From Paramesorhizobium deserti (lineage in GTDB: Bacteria > Pseudomonadota > Alphaproteobacteria > Rhizobiales > Rhizobiaceae): DNA of 64,000 bases. Under the pieces are notes generated by a model that saw only the letters and a program-made list of their open reading frames with translations, made no database searches and was not told the DNA's origin. Positions 2,554 through 37,912 of this stretch are shown piece by piece. The DNA lies in assembly GCF_001558695.1 (NCBI RefSeq), contig NZ_LNTU01000023.1, positions 558,001 to 622,000 of the forward strand. Reading direction: 5' to 3'. Made by a program: the position numbers and the translations under genes. The stretch's first letter is position 1, and the number at the start of each line of letters is the position of its first letter.

Positions 2554-2627
2554 TAGTGAGATAGTGAGTAGGGAATAGTGAGATAGTGGGTTAATCGCCT
2601 TCACTACTCACTATTCCCTATCTCACT
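2554..2627. repeat. Palindromic heptamer-repeat element, gene-less copy (site R1)
   Basis: The segment between gabD and galM is made of tandem 7-8-base units, TAGTGAG, ATAGTGAG and TAGGGAA. The arm at 2563-2588 is closely matched in reverse complement by the arm at 2602-2627, with the same blocks (AGTGAG, GGGAATAGTGAG, TAGTG) and only one-base phase shifts, separated by 13 bases. It would fold into a long hairpin. The same units form the inverted ends of the four-helix-bundle cassette at 36029-36497 and the palindrome at 33353-33392. It begins at the base after the gabD TAA stop. Confidence 0.85.
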
Positions 2628-2645
2628 CAAAAGGGCCTGCACATC

Positions 2646-33353: not shown

Positions 33354-33392
33354 GTGAGATAGTGAGTAGAAATTTCTATCTCACTACTCACT
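33353..33392. repeat. Palindromic heptamer-repeat element, minimal copy (site R2)
   Basis: Forty bases: left arm AGTGAGATAGTGAGTAGAAA and right arm TTTCTATCTCACTACTCACT (after a central T-A). The arms are near-perfect complements built of the same TAGTGAG/ATAGTGAG units as sites at 2554 and 36029. It contains the last A of the L,D-transpeptidase TAA stop and the TAG stop plus last two codons (Ser-Glu) of the convergent Anbu gene, so it also has the position of a bidirectional terminator. Confidence 0.85.
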
Positions 33393-34112
33393 GAACGACG
33401 GCAGGCTTTGGAAGGCGAGTTTGAGCGCTTCCGACCAGCCGTCGGAAATAGCCGTGTAATAGGGGTCGGTGCGCTCGACGCGCTTGTGGATGCCCAGTTT
33501 CAGCGAATCTGCCTCATAGAGCTGCATATCGAGCGGCAGACCGACTGAAAGGTTGGATTTCAGCGTCGAATCAAAGGACACGAAGAGAAGCTTCACGGCG
33601 TCCTCGAAGGTCATCGCCGGGTTATAGGCGCGCACGAGGATCGGCTTGCCGTATTTGTGTTCGCCGATCTGGAAGAAGGGGGTATCGGCCGAAGATTCGA
33701 TGAAATTGCCTTCGGGGTAGATATAGAAGAGGCGGGGCTCGCCGCCCTTGATCTGCCCGCCCAGGATGAAGGAGGCGGAGAAGGAATCGGCATTCTGGCC
33801 GCTCGGTGCGGCCTCACGGATGACTTCCTTGACGGTTTCGCCGATCAGCCTTGCCGTCTGGAACATCGACGGTGTTCCGAAAACCGAAGGGTGACGCTCA
33901 TCCGGCGCTTTCGAACGTTCCTCGATGAGGCTCACGACGCCCTGTGTGGTGGCGAGATTGCCAGCCGACAACAACACGATCACGCGGTCGCCGGTCTTCG
34001 ACCATGTGTGCATCTTGGTGAAGGTCGAGATGTTGTCGAGACCGGCATTGGTCCTTGTATCGGACATGAAGACCAGGCCGCGATCCATCTTTAAACCGAC
34101 GCAATACGTCAT
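33384..34112 (-). CDS. Anbu proteasome-like beta subunit (N-terminal-nucleophile hydrolase)
   Basis: Bacterial proteasome/HslV relative, 242 residues, starting MTYCVGLKMDRGLVF with Thr2 as the expected exposed nucleophile and SDTRTNAGLDNIS following, both diagnostic of Anbu (predicted proteasome-type protease, COG3484). Anbu rings are self-compartmentalised, and peptidase activity is debated. It is the last gene of a minus-strand operon of ATP-grasp, alpha-E and transglutaminase, an arrangement reported for Anbu in other bacteria. The ATG 34112 start follows from the need for Met-Thr. The last residues, Ser-Glu, and the stop come from the heptamer palindrome. Confidence 0.9.
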   Translation of the reverse strand: MTYCVGLKMDRGLVFMSDTRTNAGLDNISTFTKMHTWSKTGDRVIVLLSAGNLATTQGVVSLIEERSKAPDERHPSVFGTPSMFQTARLIGETVKEVIREAAPSGQNADSFSASFILGGQIKGGEPRLFYIYPEGNFIESSADTPFFQIGEHKYGKPILVRAYNPAMTFEDAVKLLFVSFDSTLKSNLSVGLPLDMQLYEADSLKLGIHKRVERTDPYYTAISDGWSEALKLAFQSLPSFSE

Positions 34113-34217
34113 TTCGCAGTTCCAAATCCTTTTCGACAAGCCGCGCTTGCGCAAAACACGAGGCGTTGCAGCGGTTCGCCGATTCCATCGGAACCGGGAC
34201 AGCCCAAGCCGCCGATA

Positions 34218-35015
34218 TTACTGCTCTACATTGATTTCGACCGCAAGCCTCTCGGCGGCATTGCCGAAGCGCACGCCGGAAATCGGCGCCGCGTCACGAT
34301 AGTCGAGGCCGCTGGCGATGCGGACATAGCGCTCGCCTGGGCAGACGCAGTTGGCGGCATCGAAACCCACCCAGCCCAAACCCGGCACATACGCTTCCGC
34401 CCAGGCGTGGCTTGCCGTCTGCTCCGTGACGCCGTCCATCATCAGATAGCCCGAGACATAGCGCGCCGGAATATCGAGAAGGCGGGCGGCGGAAATGAAG
34501 ATATGGGCGTGATCCTGGCAAACGCCCTCGCCGTTCTTCAGCGCGCTTTCGGCATCGGTTCCCACATGGGTCGCGCCGGGGACATAGGCCACCTGCCGGT
34601 GGATGGCGCCCATCAGCGTATGCAGGAGGGACAGCCTGTCGTCCTCGGCGGGAATATCGGTCACCATGGCCCGCAGGGCTTCGCCCGGCTCGGTGAGGGG
34701 GGTGGGGCGCAAGAACAGCCAGAGCGGCGCGAAACCGCCTGTCTCGCCCAGAACGCCGGCCCGGTCCTCGGTCTCGACCTGTCCGGCCGCGATAATGACG
34801 ATGTCATGGGCGCTGCGGGCGTGGCGAACAAGATCGACCTTGTTGCCGAAGCCGTCGGTATAGGAAACCTCGGGATCGGCGCCGTCCACGCTCACCTGCC
34901 AGTCGAGCACCTTCTGGCCGTTCACCGTCTGCGGCCGCAGCCGCAGCCGTTGCACGGCGTAGGGCACGGGGAAATCATAGTGATAGCGCGAGATGTGGCG
35001 GATCGTCAGCAGCAT
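34218..35015 (-). CDS. Bacterial transglutaminase-like cysteine protease (Anbu-operon type)
   Basis: Papain-fold peptidase of 265 residues. It has an N-terminal beta domain (LTIRHISRYHYDFPVPYAVQ), then the catalytic triad: Cys in GEGVCQDHAHIF near 165, His in ASHAWAEAYV near 203, and Asp in GFDAANC near 218. This family is consistently linked with alpha-E and circularly permuted ATP-grasp proteins and may cut the peptide or isopeptide they form. ATG 35015 begins the conserved region; ATG 35039 adds eight residues. A small GCCGGA/TCCGGC hairpin lies between it and the alpha-E stop. Confidence 0.88.
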   Translation of the reverse strand: MLLTIRHISRYHYDFPVPYAVQRLRLRPQTVNGQKVLDWQVSVDGADPEVSYTDGFGNKVDLVRHARSAHDIVIIAAGQVETEDRAGVLGETGGFAPLWLFLRPTPLTEPGEALRAMVTDIPAEDDRLSLLHTLMGAIHRQVAYVPGATHVGTDAESALKNGEGVCQDHAHIFISAARLLDIPARYVSGYLMMDGVTEQTASHAWAEAYVPGLGWVGFDAANCVCPGERYVRIASGLDYRDAAPISGVRFGNAAERLAVEINVEQ

Positions 35016-35074
35016 GAAAGGCTCGTTATTTTGTCGCATTTATGCGACGCCGGACTTCATCCGGCTGCAAAATG

Positions 35075-36016
35075 CTAATCGAAATTATAGGCTTCGGCGA
35101 TTTCCGTGCCGAGACGATTGTTCTTGACGATGAAATCGGACAGGAATTCGTGCAGACCCGTCTCGAAAATCCCGCTGATGTTCTTGTCTTTCAACGTTTC
35201 GTGGGTCATCTCCGCCGTTTCCTGGGCTGCGTGGCGCGCGCCGTAATCGGCGGCGAGATAGCCGAGATTATCGACGATATTGCGGTAGCAAAAATGCAGC
35301 GAGCGCGGCATGCGCCCGTTGAGAATGAGATAATCGGCGATGTGGGCCGGCTTGTAATCGCCGTCATAGACCCAGCGATAGGAGCGATGGGCGGAAACCG
35401 AGCGCAGGATCGATTCCCATTGATAATTGTCGAGTGTCGTCCCGACATAGGAGATGGCGGGCAGAAGCACGTAATATTTGACGTCGAGGATGCGGGCGGT
35501 GTTGTCGGCACGCTCGATGAAGGTGCCGATGCGGGCAAAATCGAAGATCTCATTCCTCAGCATCGTGCCGTGGAACGCACCGCGGATCAGCGCCGTCTCG
35601 CGCTTGATCTGGTCGAGAACCGGCGGCAGGTCGCTTTCCGGCACGGGGCGGCAGAGCGATTTCTTCAGCACCATCCAGGCTTCGTTGACGCTCTCCCAGG
35701 CTTCGCGGGTGAGCGCCGTGCGCACCATACGCGCATTGGAGCGCGCCGCCTCGATGCATGACATGACGCTGGAGGGGTTGTCCGTGTCACGCAGGAGGAA
35801 ATCGGAGACGGTGGCGGCGGTATAGGTCCGGTGCTTGGCCGCGAAGCCGGTTGCGGCACCGGCGCTGACGACGACGGAGGACCATTCCTCCGGGGCGTCA
35901 GAGGTCTTGGTCAGCGCCATTCGTAGTCCCGCATCGACGATGCGGGCCATGTTTTCGGCCCGCTCGATATAGCGGTGCATCCAGTAGAGGCCGTTTGCGG
36001 TGCGTCCGAGGAGCAT
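35075..36016 (-). CDS. Alpha-E domain protein
   Basis: All-helical protein of 313 residues of the alpha-E family (DUF403), beginning LLGRTANGLYWMHRYIERAE, with FLLRDTDNPSSVMSCIEAAR and WESILRSVSAHRSYRW. The family has no known catalysis and occurs with ATP-grasp ligase and transglutaminase genes, perhaps as a scaffold or substrate carrier. GAGG seven bases ahead of ATG 36016 lies between the start and the end of the inserted cassette at 36029, so its translation signal was spared. It is normally adjacent to the ATP-grasp gene; here the two are split by the cassette. Confidence 0.9.
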   Translation of the reverse strand: MLLGRTANGLYWMHRYIERAENMARIVDAGLRMALTKTSDAPEEWSSVVVSAGAATGFAAKHRTYTAATVSDFLLRDTDNPSSVMSCIEAARSNARMVRTALTREAWESVNEAWMVLKKSLCRPVPESDLPPVLDQIKRETALIRGAFHGTMLRNEIFDFARIGTFIERADNTARILDVKYYVLLPAISYVGTTLDNYQWESILRSVSAHRSYRWVYDGDYKPAHIADYLILNGRMPRSLHFCYRNIVDNLGYLAADYGARHAAQETAEMTHETLKDKNISGIFETGLHEFLSDFIVKNNRLGTEIAEAYNFD

Positions 36017-36028
36017 CAGAAGGCCTCA

Positions 36029-36061
36029 GGGGAGTAGGGAGTAGGGAATAGGGAGTAGGGG
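36029..36061. repeat. Left inverted terminal repeat of the four-helix-bundle cassette
   Basis: Reads GGGGAG, TAGGGAG, TAGGGAA, TAGGGAG, TAGGGG in tandem on the plus strand, i.e. a heptamer array. Its reverse complement recurs at 36465-36497 with two mismatches. Confidence 0.85.
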
Positions 36062-36076
36062 AGAAAAACAATCATA

Positions 36077-36475
36077 TCAGGCCCTTTGTTGCAGGCTACG
36101 GATCAATGCGCGCAGCATCCTTCCAAGGTCATCTGCTTGGACAAGCAATCGTGTGACGACGGTATCAACCATCAAGCCCACTCTTCCGCAGAGGATCAGA
36201 TGCGTTTCGACTTCTTTCAGTGACCCCTGGGCTATTCGAAGGAATTGAAGGTATGAGCCTCTATGTTCTCGTCCGTAGCCCTCTGCGATATTGGCGGCGA
36301 TAGACGGTGAAGACCTTCGCAGTTGCGAGGTCATCCCATACGTCTCACTGGTCGGAAAGGTCTTTGTCGCGGAGTAGCAATCTACGGCAAGCTCGATGGC
36401 CGCCTTCCAAACGTGCAAATCCTTATACGAGTTTACTGTCGACCGGACAGCTTCTTTCTCAATCCCCCTACTCAC
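36077..36475 (-). CDS. Four-helix-bundle protein (S23 / 23S rRNA intervening-sequence type)
   Basis: The 132-residue product matches the four-helix-bundle family found in 23S rRNA intervening sequences and related to the Avd accessory of diversity-generating retroelements: YKDLHVWKAAIELAVDCY, FPTSETYGMTSQLRRSSPSI, AANIAEGYGREHRGSYLQFL and IAQGSLKEVETHLILC. It has no catalytic motif; family members form pentamers that bind nucleic acid. The GTG start at 36475 lies inside the right inverted repeat, with GGGAG and AGGGA of that repeat upstream as ribosome-binding site; no ATG exists before the conserved region. Base composition is visibly lower in GC than the neighbours. The gene is on the strand of the operon it interrupts. 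Confidence 0.88.
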   Translation of the reverse strand: MSRGIEKEAVRSTVNSYKDLHVWKAAIELAVDCYSATKTFPTSETYGMTSQLRRSSPSIAANIAEGYGREHRGSYLQFLRIAQGSLKEVETHLILCGRVGLMVDTVVTRLLVQADDLGRMLRALIRSLQQRA

Positions 36476-36497
36476 TATTCCCTACTCCCTATTCCCC
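36465..36497. repeat. Right inverted terminal repeat of the four-helix-bundle cassette
   Basis: On the minus strand it reads GGGGAA, TAGGGAG, TAGGGAA, TAGTGAG, TAGGGG. It differs from the left repeat at two positions (G to A, G to T). The G-to-T change creates the GTG used as start codon by the internal gene. Confidence 0.85.
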
Positions 36498-36499
36498 TC

Positions 36500-37912
36500 T
36501 TAATCATCCAACACCCACGTATCCTTCGTCCCCCCGCCCTGACTGGAATTCACCACCAGCGAGCCTTCTTTGAGGGCGACGCGGGTCAGCCCGCCGGGCG
36601 TGATGCGGATGCGGTCGGAGACGAGGACGAAGGGGCGGAGATCGACATGGCGTGGCGCGAGCCCCTTTTCGGTGAGGATGGGTGTGGTCGAGAGCGCCAG
36701 CGTTGGCTGGGCGATGTAGTTGTTCGGCCGGCTTTTGAGCTTTTCAGAGAAGGCCTCGCGCTCCTTCTTGGACGCGGCGGGGCCGACGAGCATGCCATAG
36801 CCGCCCGAGCCGTGAACCTCCTTCACCACGAGTTCCTCCAGGTGCTCGAGAACATAGGCGAGGCTGTCCTTCTCCGAGCAACGCCAGGTGGGCACGTTTT
36901 CGAGGATCGCCTTGCGGCCGGTATAGAATTCGACGATCTCCGGCATATAGGAATAGATCGCCTTGTCGTCGGCAATGCCGGTGCCGGGCGCATTGGCGAT
37001 GGTGATATTGCCGGCGCGGTAGACATCCATGATGCCGGCGACGCCGAGGGTGGAGTCCGGGCGGAAGGTGAGGGGATCGAGATAGGCGTCGTCGACCCGG
37101 CGGTAGAGCACGTCGATCGGACGGAAGCCTTCCGTCGTGCGCATGGCGACCCTGCCGTCGACGACGCGCAGATCGCTTCCCTCGACCAGTTCCACGCCCA
37201 TCTGGTCGGCAAGAAAGGCGTGTTCGAAATAGGCGGAATTGTAGATGCCGGGGGTCAGCACCGCTATCGTCGGCGCGCCCCGGGCAGCAGCCGGCGCGAC
37301 GGCGGAAAGGGACTGGCGCAGCAATTGCGGATAGGTCTCGACCGGGCAGACCTTCACATGCTGGAACAGCTCGGGGAAGAGCTGCATCATGGTTTCCCGG
37401 TTCTCCAGCATATAGGAGACACCCGATGGCGTGCGGGCGTTGTCCTCCAGCACGTAGAACTGGTTTTCCGCCGTGCGCACGATGTCGACGCCGATGATAT
37501 GGGTATAGACATTGCCGGGCGGGCGGAAACCGATCATCTCCGGTACGAAGGCCTCGTTATGGGCGATCAGCTCTTTCGGGATACGCCCGGCGCGCACGAT
37601 CTCCTGGCGGTGATAAATGTCGTCGAGAAAGGCGTTGAGCGCCATGACGCGCTGTTCGATGCCCTGCGACAGGCGCCGCCACTCCCGGCCGGAGATGATG
37701 CGCGGGATGATGTCGAACGGGATCAGGCGTTCGGCGGCCTGATCATCGCCATAGACGGCGAAGGTGATGCCGGTCTTGCGGAAGACATGTTCGGCATCGA
37801 CCGTCTTCTGCGTCAGTTTGTCAGGATTTTGCGTTTCGAGCCATTTTTTCAGAATTTTGTAGGGCGGCCGGACGCCGTCACCTTCAGCAAGCATTTCATC
37901 GAATGGCTTCAC
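36500..37912 (-). CDS. Circularly permuted ATP-grasp type 2 protein
   Basis: ATP-dependent carboxylate-amine ligase of the permuted ATP-grasp family, 470 residues, which presumably makes a peptide or amide bond in an unknown metabolite or tag. It has VYTHIIGVDIVRTAENQFYV, LEDNARTPSGVSYMLENRE, ILTPGIYNSAYFEHAFLA-like sequence, and KEVHGSGGYGMLVGP for nucleotide binding. GTG 37912 has AGGGG six bases upstream. It is the first gene of the Anbu operon. The four-helix-bundle cassette follows its TAA stop after two bases, separating it from the alpha-E gene. Confidence 0.9.
   Translation of the reverse strand: MKPFDEMLAEGDGVRPPYKILKKWLETQNPDKLTQKTVDAEHVFRKTGITFAVYGDDQAAERLIPFDIIPRIISGREWRRLSQGIEQRVMALNAFLDDIYHRQEIVRAGRIPKELIAHNEAFVPEMIGFRPPGNVYTHIIGVDIVRTAENQFYVLEDNARTPSGVSYMLENRETMMQLFPELFQHVKVCPVETYPQLLRQSLSAVAPAAARGAPTIAVLTPGIYNSAYFEHAFLADQMGVELVEGSDLRVVDGRVAMRTTEGFRPIDVLYRRVDDAYLDPLTFRPDSTLGVAGIMDVYRAGNITIANAPGTGIADDKAIYSYMPEIVEFYTGRKAILENVPTWRCSEKDSLAYVLEHLEELVVKEVHGSGGYGMLVGPAASKKEREAFSEKLKSRPNNYIAQPTLALSTTPILTEKGLAPRHVDLRPFVLVSDRIRITPGGLTRVALKEGSLVVNSSQGGGTKDTWVLDD

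Follow-up and report, generated by a model that had tools for sequence, protein, structure and literature searches.

A small gene for a four-helix-bundle protein (hereafter 4HB), held between inverted arrays of G-rich heptamers, is lodged in an operon of the window, the whole stretch of 64,000 nucleotides analysed here. It is probably the core of a small mobile cassette of the 23S intervening sequence (IVS) kind, sitting between operon genes, moving with its arms and encoding no transposase. The mobility of the cassette is what we infer by comparing related loci.

The cassette in the window

The unit separates the stop codon of an ATP-grasp gene from the start of alpha-E, and ATP-grasp, 4HB and alpha-E are co-directional. 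Pfam bears out this position, given in the first-pass annotation, and shows transglutaminase and proteasome-fold genes downstream. We take this gene cluster to be the Anbu operon. The features are as follows.

36465..36498, no strand: 5' arm as seen from the gene, made of TAGGGAR/TAGTGAG heptamers in tandem, the + strand being C-rich
36028..36061, no strand: 3' arm, made of TAGGGAR heptamers in tandem, the + strand being G-rich
36077..36475, minus strand: gene for the 4HB protein (PF05635/TIGR02436, S23/IVS type), 132 aa if read from its first possible start
36500..37912, minus strand: circularly permuted ATP-grasp, operon gene upstream, its stop codon abutting the 5' arm
35075..36016, minus strand: alpha-E, operon gene downstream (Pfam)
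34218..35039, minus strand: transglutaminase-like gene, same operon as the cassette (Pfam)
33384..34154, minus strand: proteasome-fold (Anbu-like) gene, same operon as the cassette (Pfam)

An inverted-repeat search returned arms of 34 nt, 94% complementary, with 403 nt between them, in agreement with the repeats first annotated at 36029-36061 and 36465-36497. The TAGGGAR/TAGTGAG composition proposed for them is borne out by reading the sequence: the units are TAGGGAR throughout plus one TAGTGAG. Aligned without gaps, the arms score 29, and none of 300 mononucleotide shuffles of an 850-bp region exceeds 12.5.

The 4HB protein passes the curated cut-offs of PF05635 (E 4e-34, 117.5 bits, cut-off 33.8) and TIGR02436 (E 2e-34, 118.2 bits, cut-off 24), which confirms the S23/IVS-type identity first given to it. 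In the PDB, the family alignment has relatives in 2gsc (XCC0516, E 6e-33) and 2rld. PF05635 is the sole Pfam match at E 0.001; hence no nuclease or transposase domain was found in the protein, as first noted, and the Pfam and TIGR02436 searches revealed no transposase of the cassette's own, such as would mark a DNA transposon or insertion sequence. The lower GC content that had been pointed out also holds (52.9% for the 4HB gene, 61.9% for ATP-grasp and 60.1% for alpha-E). A second 4HB gene of the window's genome, L133 (G000:C1:493883-494191), is 52% identical to the window copy. It is flanked by 8-mers (TAGGGGAR) and occupies a glutamine-synthetase-like/FAD-oxidoreductase slot.

Judged from substitution rates, the 4HB protein looks to be under purifying selection. 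Between the window gene and the copies of three congeners, dN/dS is 0.06-0.10 with dS of 1.5-2.2, near saturation; among 4HB pairs with finite dS it is 0.06-0.16, some pairs being near saturation. In addition, the cassette RNA is predicted to fold with its arms paired (z -4.8 vs shuffles). This low dN/dS and this fold would also suit another reading, in which the hairpins serve host or operon regulation as terminators or processing stems, the protein is a dedicated RNA-binding regulator, and mobility is incidental. The cleavage of a comparable S23p stem-loop by RNase III in vitro, described for Coxiella burnetii in PMC4990558, points the same way. On the other hand, congeners differ in the presence of the unit at the same operon slot, and at one and the same site the unit sequence differs species by species. 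We consider the regulatory reading improbable.

Heptamer arms across the 4HB family

Relatives of the 4HB protein were encoded by 561 of 588 candidate stretches, of which the best 80 were kept. Arms were scored as the best inverted repeat between the 220 bp on each side of the gene, plus the tandem period; a locus was counted when its score was at least 12, its best lag 7 or 8 and its periodicity at least 0.55. Among these best relatives, 66 of 79 loci pass, vs 2 of 280 neighbour genes and none of 395 shuffles. Both neighbour passes are the 4HB gene itself, at L174 and L187; with the stop codon correctly placed, L174, L187 and L212 pass too, giving 69/79. The best lag is 7 in 62 of the 66 passing loci and 8 in the other 4.

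The first set consists of the best matches to Rhizobiales queries, and the association test was therefore repeated on loci found with the Pfam profile. Genomes with a profile match number 27/249 at the level of the order, 14/37 for family plus genus and 52/299 for the phylum; the profile matched in none of 14 control genomes, a group that includes Escherichia coli. The set of 82 loci is drawn from these searches, at the phylum level from a part of the matches listed, with fragments and weak matches left out and L150 and L268 dropped at contig edges. It gives 63 passing loci, vs 3/135 neighbour genes. At least five loci belong to both sets (L159/L170, L125/L171, L274/L175, L163/L215 and L273/L241). 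As run, 13/79 and 19/82 loci fall short of the strict threshold, several of them still with a best lag of 7. Passing loci come from Alphaproteobacteria, Cyanobacteria, Acidobacteria, Planctomycetes, Chloroflexi, one Nitrospirae, one Fibrobacteres and one Methanophagales archaeon. Lag 7 is seen as well in L238, from Treponema, which stands outside the count (short flank).

A hairpin in which the gene is the loop is thus a widespread pattern, of which the window unit is one case. The first-pass annotation had asked whether the repeats recur at other four-helix-bundle loci; they do, in both sets. Its choice of TAGGGAR as the signature gave way, the unit sequence being lineage-specific: TAGCGAA, TAGGCAG, TGGTGAA, TCGGCAG, TAGTGAG and CAGTGAG are found, as well as the 8-mers TAGGGGAR and TAGGGGAG. 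What is constant is the tandem 7-mer or 8-mer, the inversion and the gene in the loop.

Several loci depart from this layout or come from other replicons. L145 and L162 match PF05635 at or just over the cut-off and have no heptamer hairpin visible by eye; they possibly form a separate subgroup. One of the two arms of L138 (G046) is built on a mixed unit of greater length (GGCAGTAGGGCTTC), and in G046 the counts for the reversed control pattern are unusually high (72 and 19). 4HB genes with TCGGC-type arms occur on IMG/VR contigs classed as viral (L251-L255), and GenBank phage records gave no match. Relatives less than 60% identical were found on plasmids (42 records). Two of three plasmid loci pass the arm test, and L333 (Nostoc sp. 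C052) fails. Two plasmid copies from one Calothrix strain were considered as a recent jump and rejected: they share neighbouring genes at the same spacing and may therefore be parts of a larger shared segment.

Slots, inheritance and gene-less hairpins

Among 164 loci (duplicates included), the named slots are nuoC-nuoD (55), glutamine-synthetase-like/FAD-oxidoreductase (13), acyl-CoA-dehydrogenase/mmsB (8) and the window's own (8). The slot genes are presumably what these names say, the names having been assigned from sequence motifs. An automatic count of neighbour strands at 158 loci (84 with both on the same strand, 51 with one or both opposite, 23 with one or both neighbours missing) was discarded, antisense ORFs in GC-rich DNA making it unreliable; only the named slots, with a downstream gene identified by its motif, were used.

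Filled and empty sites were compared in six genomes of the genus, G000 (the window's genome) to G005. The nuoC-nuoD slot is filled in G001 (485 bp) and G004 (468 bp) and empty in G000, G002, G003 and G005 (11 bp). The window slot is filled in G000-G003 and empty in G005 (48 bp), G004 having no alpha-E match; it is also empty in genomes of other genera. The empty sites in relatives that the first-pass annotation had proposed to look for therefore exist, both at the window slot and beyond it. No target-site duplication was evident in seven filled/empty alignments, whose boundaries are partly blurred by divergence, and no insertion was caught in the act among the loci compared.

At nuoC-nuoD, 4HB distances bear no relation to those of the adjacent NuoD (rho -0.009, 54 loci). 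For the arms, four duplicate genomes were dropped. In the remaining 50 loci, arm distances follow the cassette protein (rho 0.41, 0/999 permutations), as compared to rho -0.06 against NuoD, which represents the host. These distances show that arms and cassette gene travel together, independently of the neighbour that lies about 50 bp off. Such co-inheritance is not proof of recognition, since linkage alone could give it. In 7 of 12 chosen nuoC-nuoD pairs, NuoD is 94-99% identical and the cassette protein 54-66%; for L131/L139 the values are 99% and 66%. One pair, L125/L128, goes the opposite way (98 and 93). A single clade for the six Mesorhizobium copies, a group picked after the first tree, is rejected with p 5e-106.

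For the window-slot copies, a single clade is not rejected (p 0.62). Two separate arrivals in this slot, hinted at in a quick tree, are therefore no longer argued from topology, and turnover in the slot is argued from synonymous differences. In five of six genome pairs, the synonymous difference in the window slot is 0.65-0.82 for 4HB vs 0.33-0.47 for alpha-E and part of ATP-grasp. The bootstrap intervals are apart in four pairs and touch in G000/G003 (0.52, alpha-E). The sixth pair, G002/G003, has 0.34 for 4HB vs 0.42/0.35 and is not above its neighbours. The copies of G000, G001 and G002/G003 therefore have separate histories or were replaced. Overall, the first interpretation stands in part. 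The idea of a minimal mobile cassette is supported, with empty sites in relatives, repeats at other 4HB loci and a unit history uncoupled from that of the adjacent gene; TAGGGAR as its signature does not stand.

The main rival is slot exchange by homologous recombination. The cassette would then be a passenger only, in short tracts swapped via conserved flanking genes, with no element-encoded mobility. Such exchange would agree with the recurrence of the same slots, above all nuoC-nuoD, with slot labels that cluster on the 4HB gene tree, where they take 4 changes as compared to 25.6 when shuffled, and with the distant relatives on plasmids. It does not fit a single lineage that is found twice in G001, at different slots (L151 and L167, 86% identical). 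Nor does it fit the gene-less hairpins at many unrelated sites and the one cassette inside 23S rRNA, both described below, for which some way of reaching new places is needed. We regard passenger exchange as rather unlikely and retain the mobile cassette.

One gene-less hairpin lies in the window itself:

2554..2628, no strand: gene-less hairpin with TAGTGAG/TAGGGAA arms and a short loop, between two genes

In G004 and G005 its site is empty, with 11-12 bp in place of 99; the site carries a GCAGTAA hairpin in G001 and seven double units in G002. When the window's genome was searched for two TAGGGAR units with at most 1 mismatch, 61 matches were obtained, in about 27 clusters, and none with the reversed pattern. 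Inspection of 24 gene-less clusters showed both strands in 17 (a G-rich arm, a short loop and a C-rich arm; 49-98 bp) and one strand in 7. The flanks of 16 hairpins were mapped in five congeners, and 43 orthologous intervals, out of a possible 80, were inspected at 15 sites. These intervals vary by gain or loss: some have no heptamers, some another unit and some a similar hairpin. L064's site has a heptamer hairpin in G000 and no heptamers in G003 and G005; G005 has a short unrelated inverted repeat instead, a replacement that speaks for the regulatory reading.

Across genomes, the median excess of 7-mer arrays over the reversed control is 42 in the 31 genomes with the gene vs 2 in the 39 without it (p 6e-8), with a generic 7-mer pattern derived from arms already seen and with the cassettes' own arms counted too. 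Exceptions exist on both sides: 10 of the 31 gene-bearing genomes have an excess below 15, and G013, G010 and G035 have arrays with no gene found. G013 (96% complete, about 100 contigs) contains many TGGTGAA and some TAGCGAA arrays, one of them at a contig end, and no 4HB gene was found in it. In G266, a stretch of contig C14 (8829-17448) shorter than 9 kb is densely filled with mixed heptamer arrays built from several units.

The units of cassettes and gene-less arrays correspond in part. An exact 14-mer was taken from the cassette arms and sought elsewhere in the genome, places being assigned by hand. On this hand assignment, among the matches listed, the TAGGCAG 14-mer was found elsewhere in 5/5 genomes that have it in their cassette arms vs 4/28 others (p 0.0005). 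On the same basis, TGGTGAA gave a weak 2/2 vs 5/31 (p 0.04) and TAGCGAA no matching (3/6 vs 11/27, p 1.0). The G004 cassette is without the exact TGGTGAA 14-mer, and counting G004 as a TGGTGAA genome gives p 0.006. By eye, the gene-less hairpins of G000, G001 and G004 show both the 7-mer and the 8-mer cassette units. Gene-less hairpins also stand where relatives have a cassette, in the window's slot in G013 and at nuoC-nuoD in G036, the latter with the unit of G036's own cassette. Several of the gene-less hairpins built of 8-mers have TATG...CATA in common at the border of the loop. Among the 8-mer cassettes, ACATACT occurs on the inner edge of the 3' arm in L133, L151, L155 and L164 and is absent there from L167, L148, L150 and L135.

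Replication errors alone (slippage or template switching at G-rich 7-mers) might also build such arrays, the gene being merely often trapped between arms. The strong expansion in some species, such as the seven double units of G002 at 2554-2628, would follow from them, and the two arms at a given site tend to be built of one unit, which template switching would explain. For GGGNATC-type arrays, polymerase slippage is mentioned in the main text of PMC4692102. Neighbour genes, however, are almost never trapped (2/280, both the 4HB gene itself, and 3/135), and the arms track the gene lineage, not the host. An origin by such errors alone is very improbable, and we continue with the mobile cassette.

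Possible movement and known systems

The arms may be the recognition ends of the cassette. The 4HB protein would bind them as hairpin DNA or RNA and, once bound, could bring in host or unlinked enzymes as movers. The gene-less hairpins would be non-autonomous derivatives of the cassette. In the transcript, RNase III may cut the paired stem, and the operon could tolerate the insert because of this cut. A reverse transcriptase was considered as the moving enzyme and found no support: RVT_1 is found in 14/30 genomes with the gene vs 7/23 without it (p 0.27). RVT_1 searches gave none in G000 and none in six g57 genomes, where the gene and many arrays are present.

A wider proposal is possible rather than probable. 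The cassettes would form a transposase-free mobile class, in which one 4HB protein recognises a heptamer-hairpin dialect of its own. With host functions only, this protein would carry both the cassette and gene-less hairpins between operons, plasmids and rRNA genes in many phyla. The rRNA IVSs would be members settled in rRNA, and at least part of the G-rich heptamer arrays would be non-autonomous copies.

The 4HB/S23 family, the rRNA IVSs with their suspected mobility, and the heptamer repeats are each known separately. Among the matches listed for open PubMed Central text, which leaves preprints and most subscription papers outside, neither a link between S23 family, IVSs and heptamer repeats nor an operon-borne form with exchangeable arms was found. 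Two puzzles may thus be one: an S23 protein of IVSs without known function, and abundant inverted heptamer repeats without known origin. Should this pairing be right, the protein gains a predicted ligand, its own arm hairpin, and the dispersed hairpins gain a predicted source. The pairing would also account for the recurrence of the gene in operons that are unrelated, nuoC-nuoD among them, and a cassette of less than 500 bp would make transposition-like movement in the absence of a transposase directly testable.

Among known systems, REPINs are non-autonomous hairpins dispersed in the same genome as a RAYT gene that is itself flanked by inverted repeats. The window's genome likewise has a small gene between inverted repeats and dispersed gene-less hairpins, the match between cassette-arm and dispersed-array units being only partly confirmed. 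In contrast to REP/RAYT, the window protein has no HuH/Y1 transposase domain, and the repeat is built of 7-mers in tandem where REP has a single palindrome. Avd, of diversity-generating retroelements, is probably related to the four-helix-bundle family. The window differs from these retroelements in that its genome has no RVT_1 match.

Two kinds of heptamer repeat resemble the arms. The GGGNATC-type heptamers of Xanthomonas and Nostoc are G-rich and mostly intergenic, and their unit numbers vary among relatives (Rehm et al. 2015, PMC4692102). The main text of that paper counts 70 and 75 convergent inverted pairs in two Xanthomonas genomes, treats the repeats as quadruplex-forming and generally apart from insertion sequences and transposable elements, and mentions polymerase slippage. 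Both these repeats and those of the window are G-rich tandem heptamers, and that main text never uses the phrase helix bundle. The TAACTGA heptamers of Beggiatoaceae, Cyanobacteria and Bacteroidetes are intergenic, tandem and scattered; the principal genome of that study carries 169 direct sets and a single inverted repeat (MacGregor 2015, PMC4679880). They share with the window the intergenic tandem heptamers; the terms helix bundle, S23 and intervening are absent from the main text of that paper.

The 23S IVSs come closest. According to Warrier et al. 2016 (PMC4990558), the IVS of C. burnetii has a 28-bp stem with the S23p ORF in its loop, and RNase III in vitro cuts this stem-loop from 23S precursor RNA. 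That paper finds the heptamer GACAGAT two or three times in tandem ahead of the S23p start and concludes that the protein is probably not made in C. burnetii; its discussion cites earlier authors for the idea of the IVS as a mobile element. One of our own loci, L294, lies inside 23S rRNA (RF02541; 1/20 loci in the Rfam search) and has TCAGGAA-like heptamer arms. Of two non-rRNA members inspected in its genome, L277 passes the arm test and L292 fails. The window unit shares with the IVSs the protein family, complementary termini forming a stem (34 in the window, 28 bp in Coxiella) with the S23p ORF in its loop, and a sporadic distribution. Unlike them, it lies between protein genes of an operon and not in a 16S or 23S rRNA gene, each of its two arms is an array of heptamers, and its genome has gene-less hairpins at dispersed sites. 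Overall, the cassette in the window appears to share the design of the IVS, outside rRNA.
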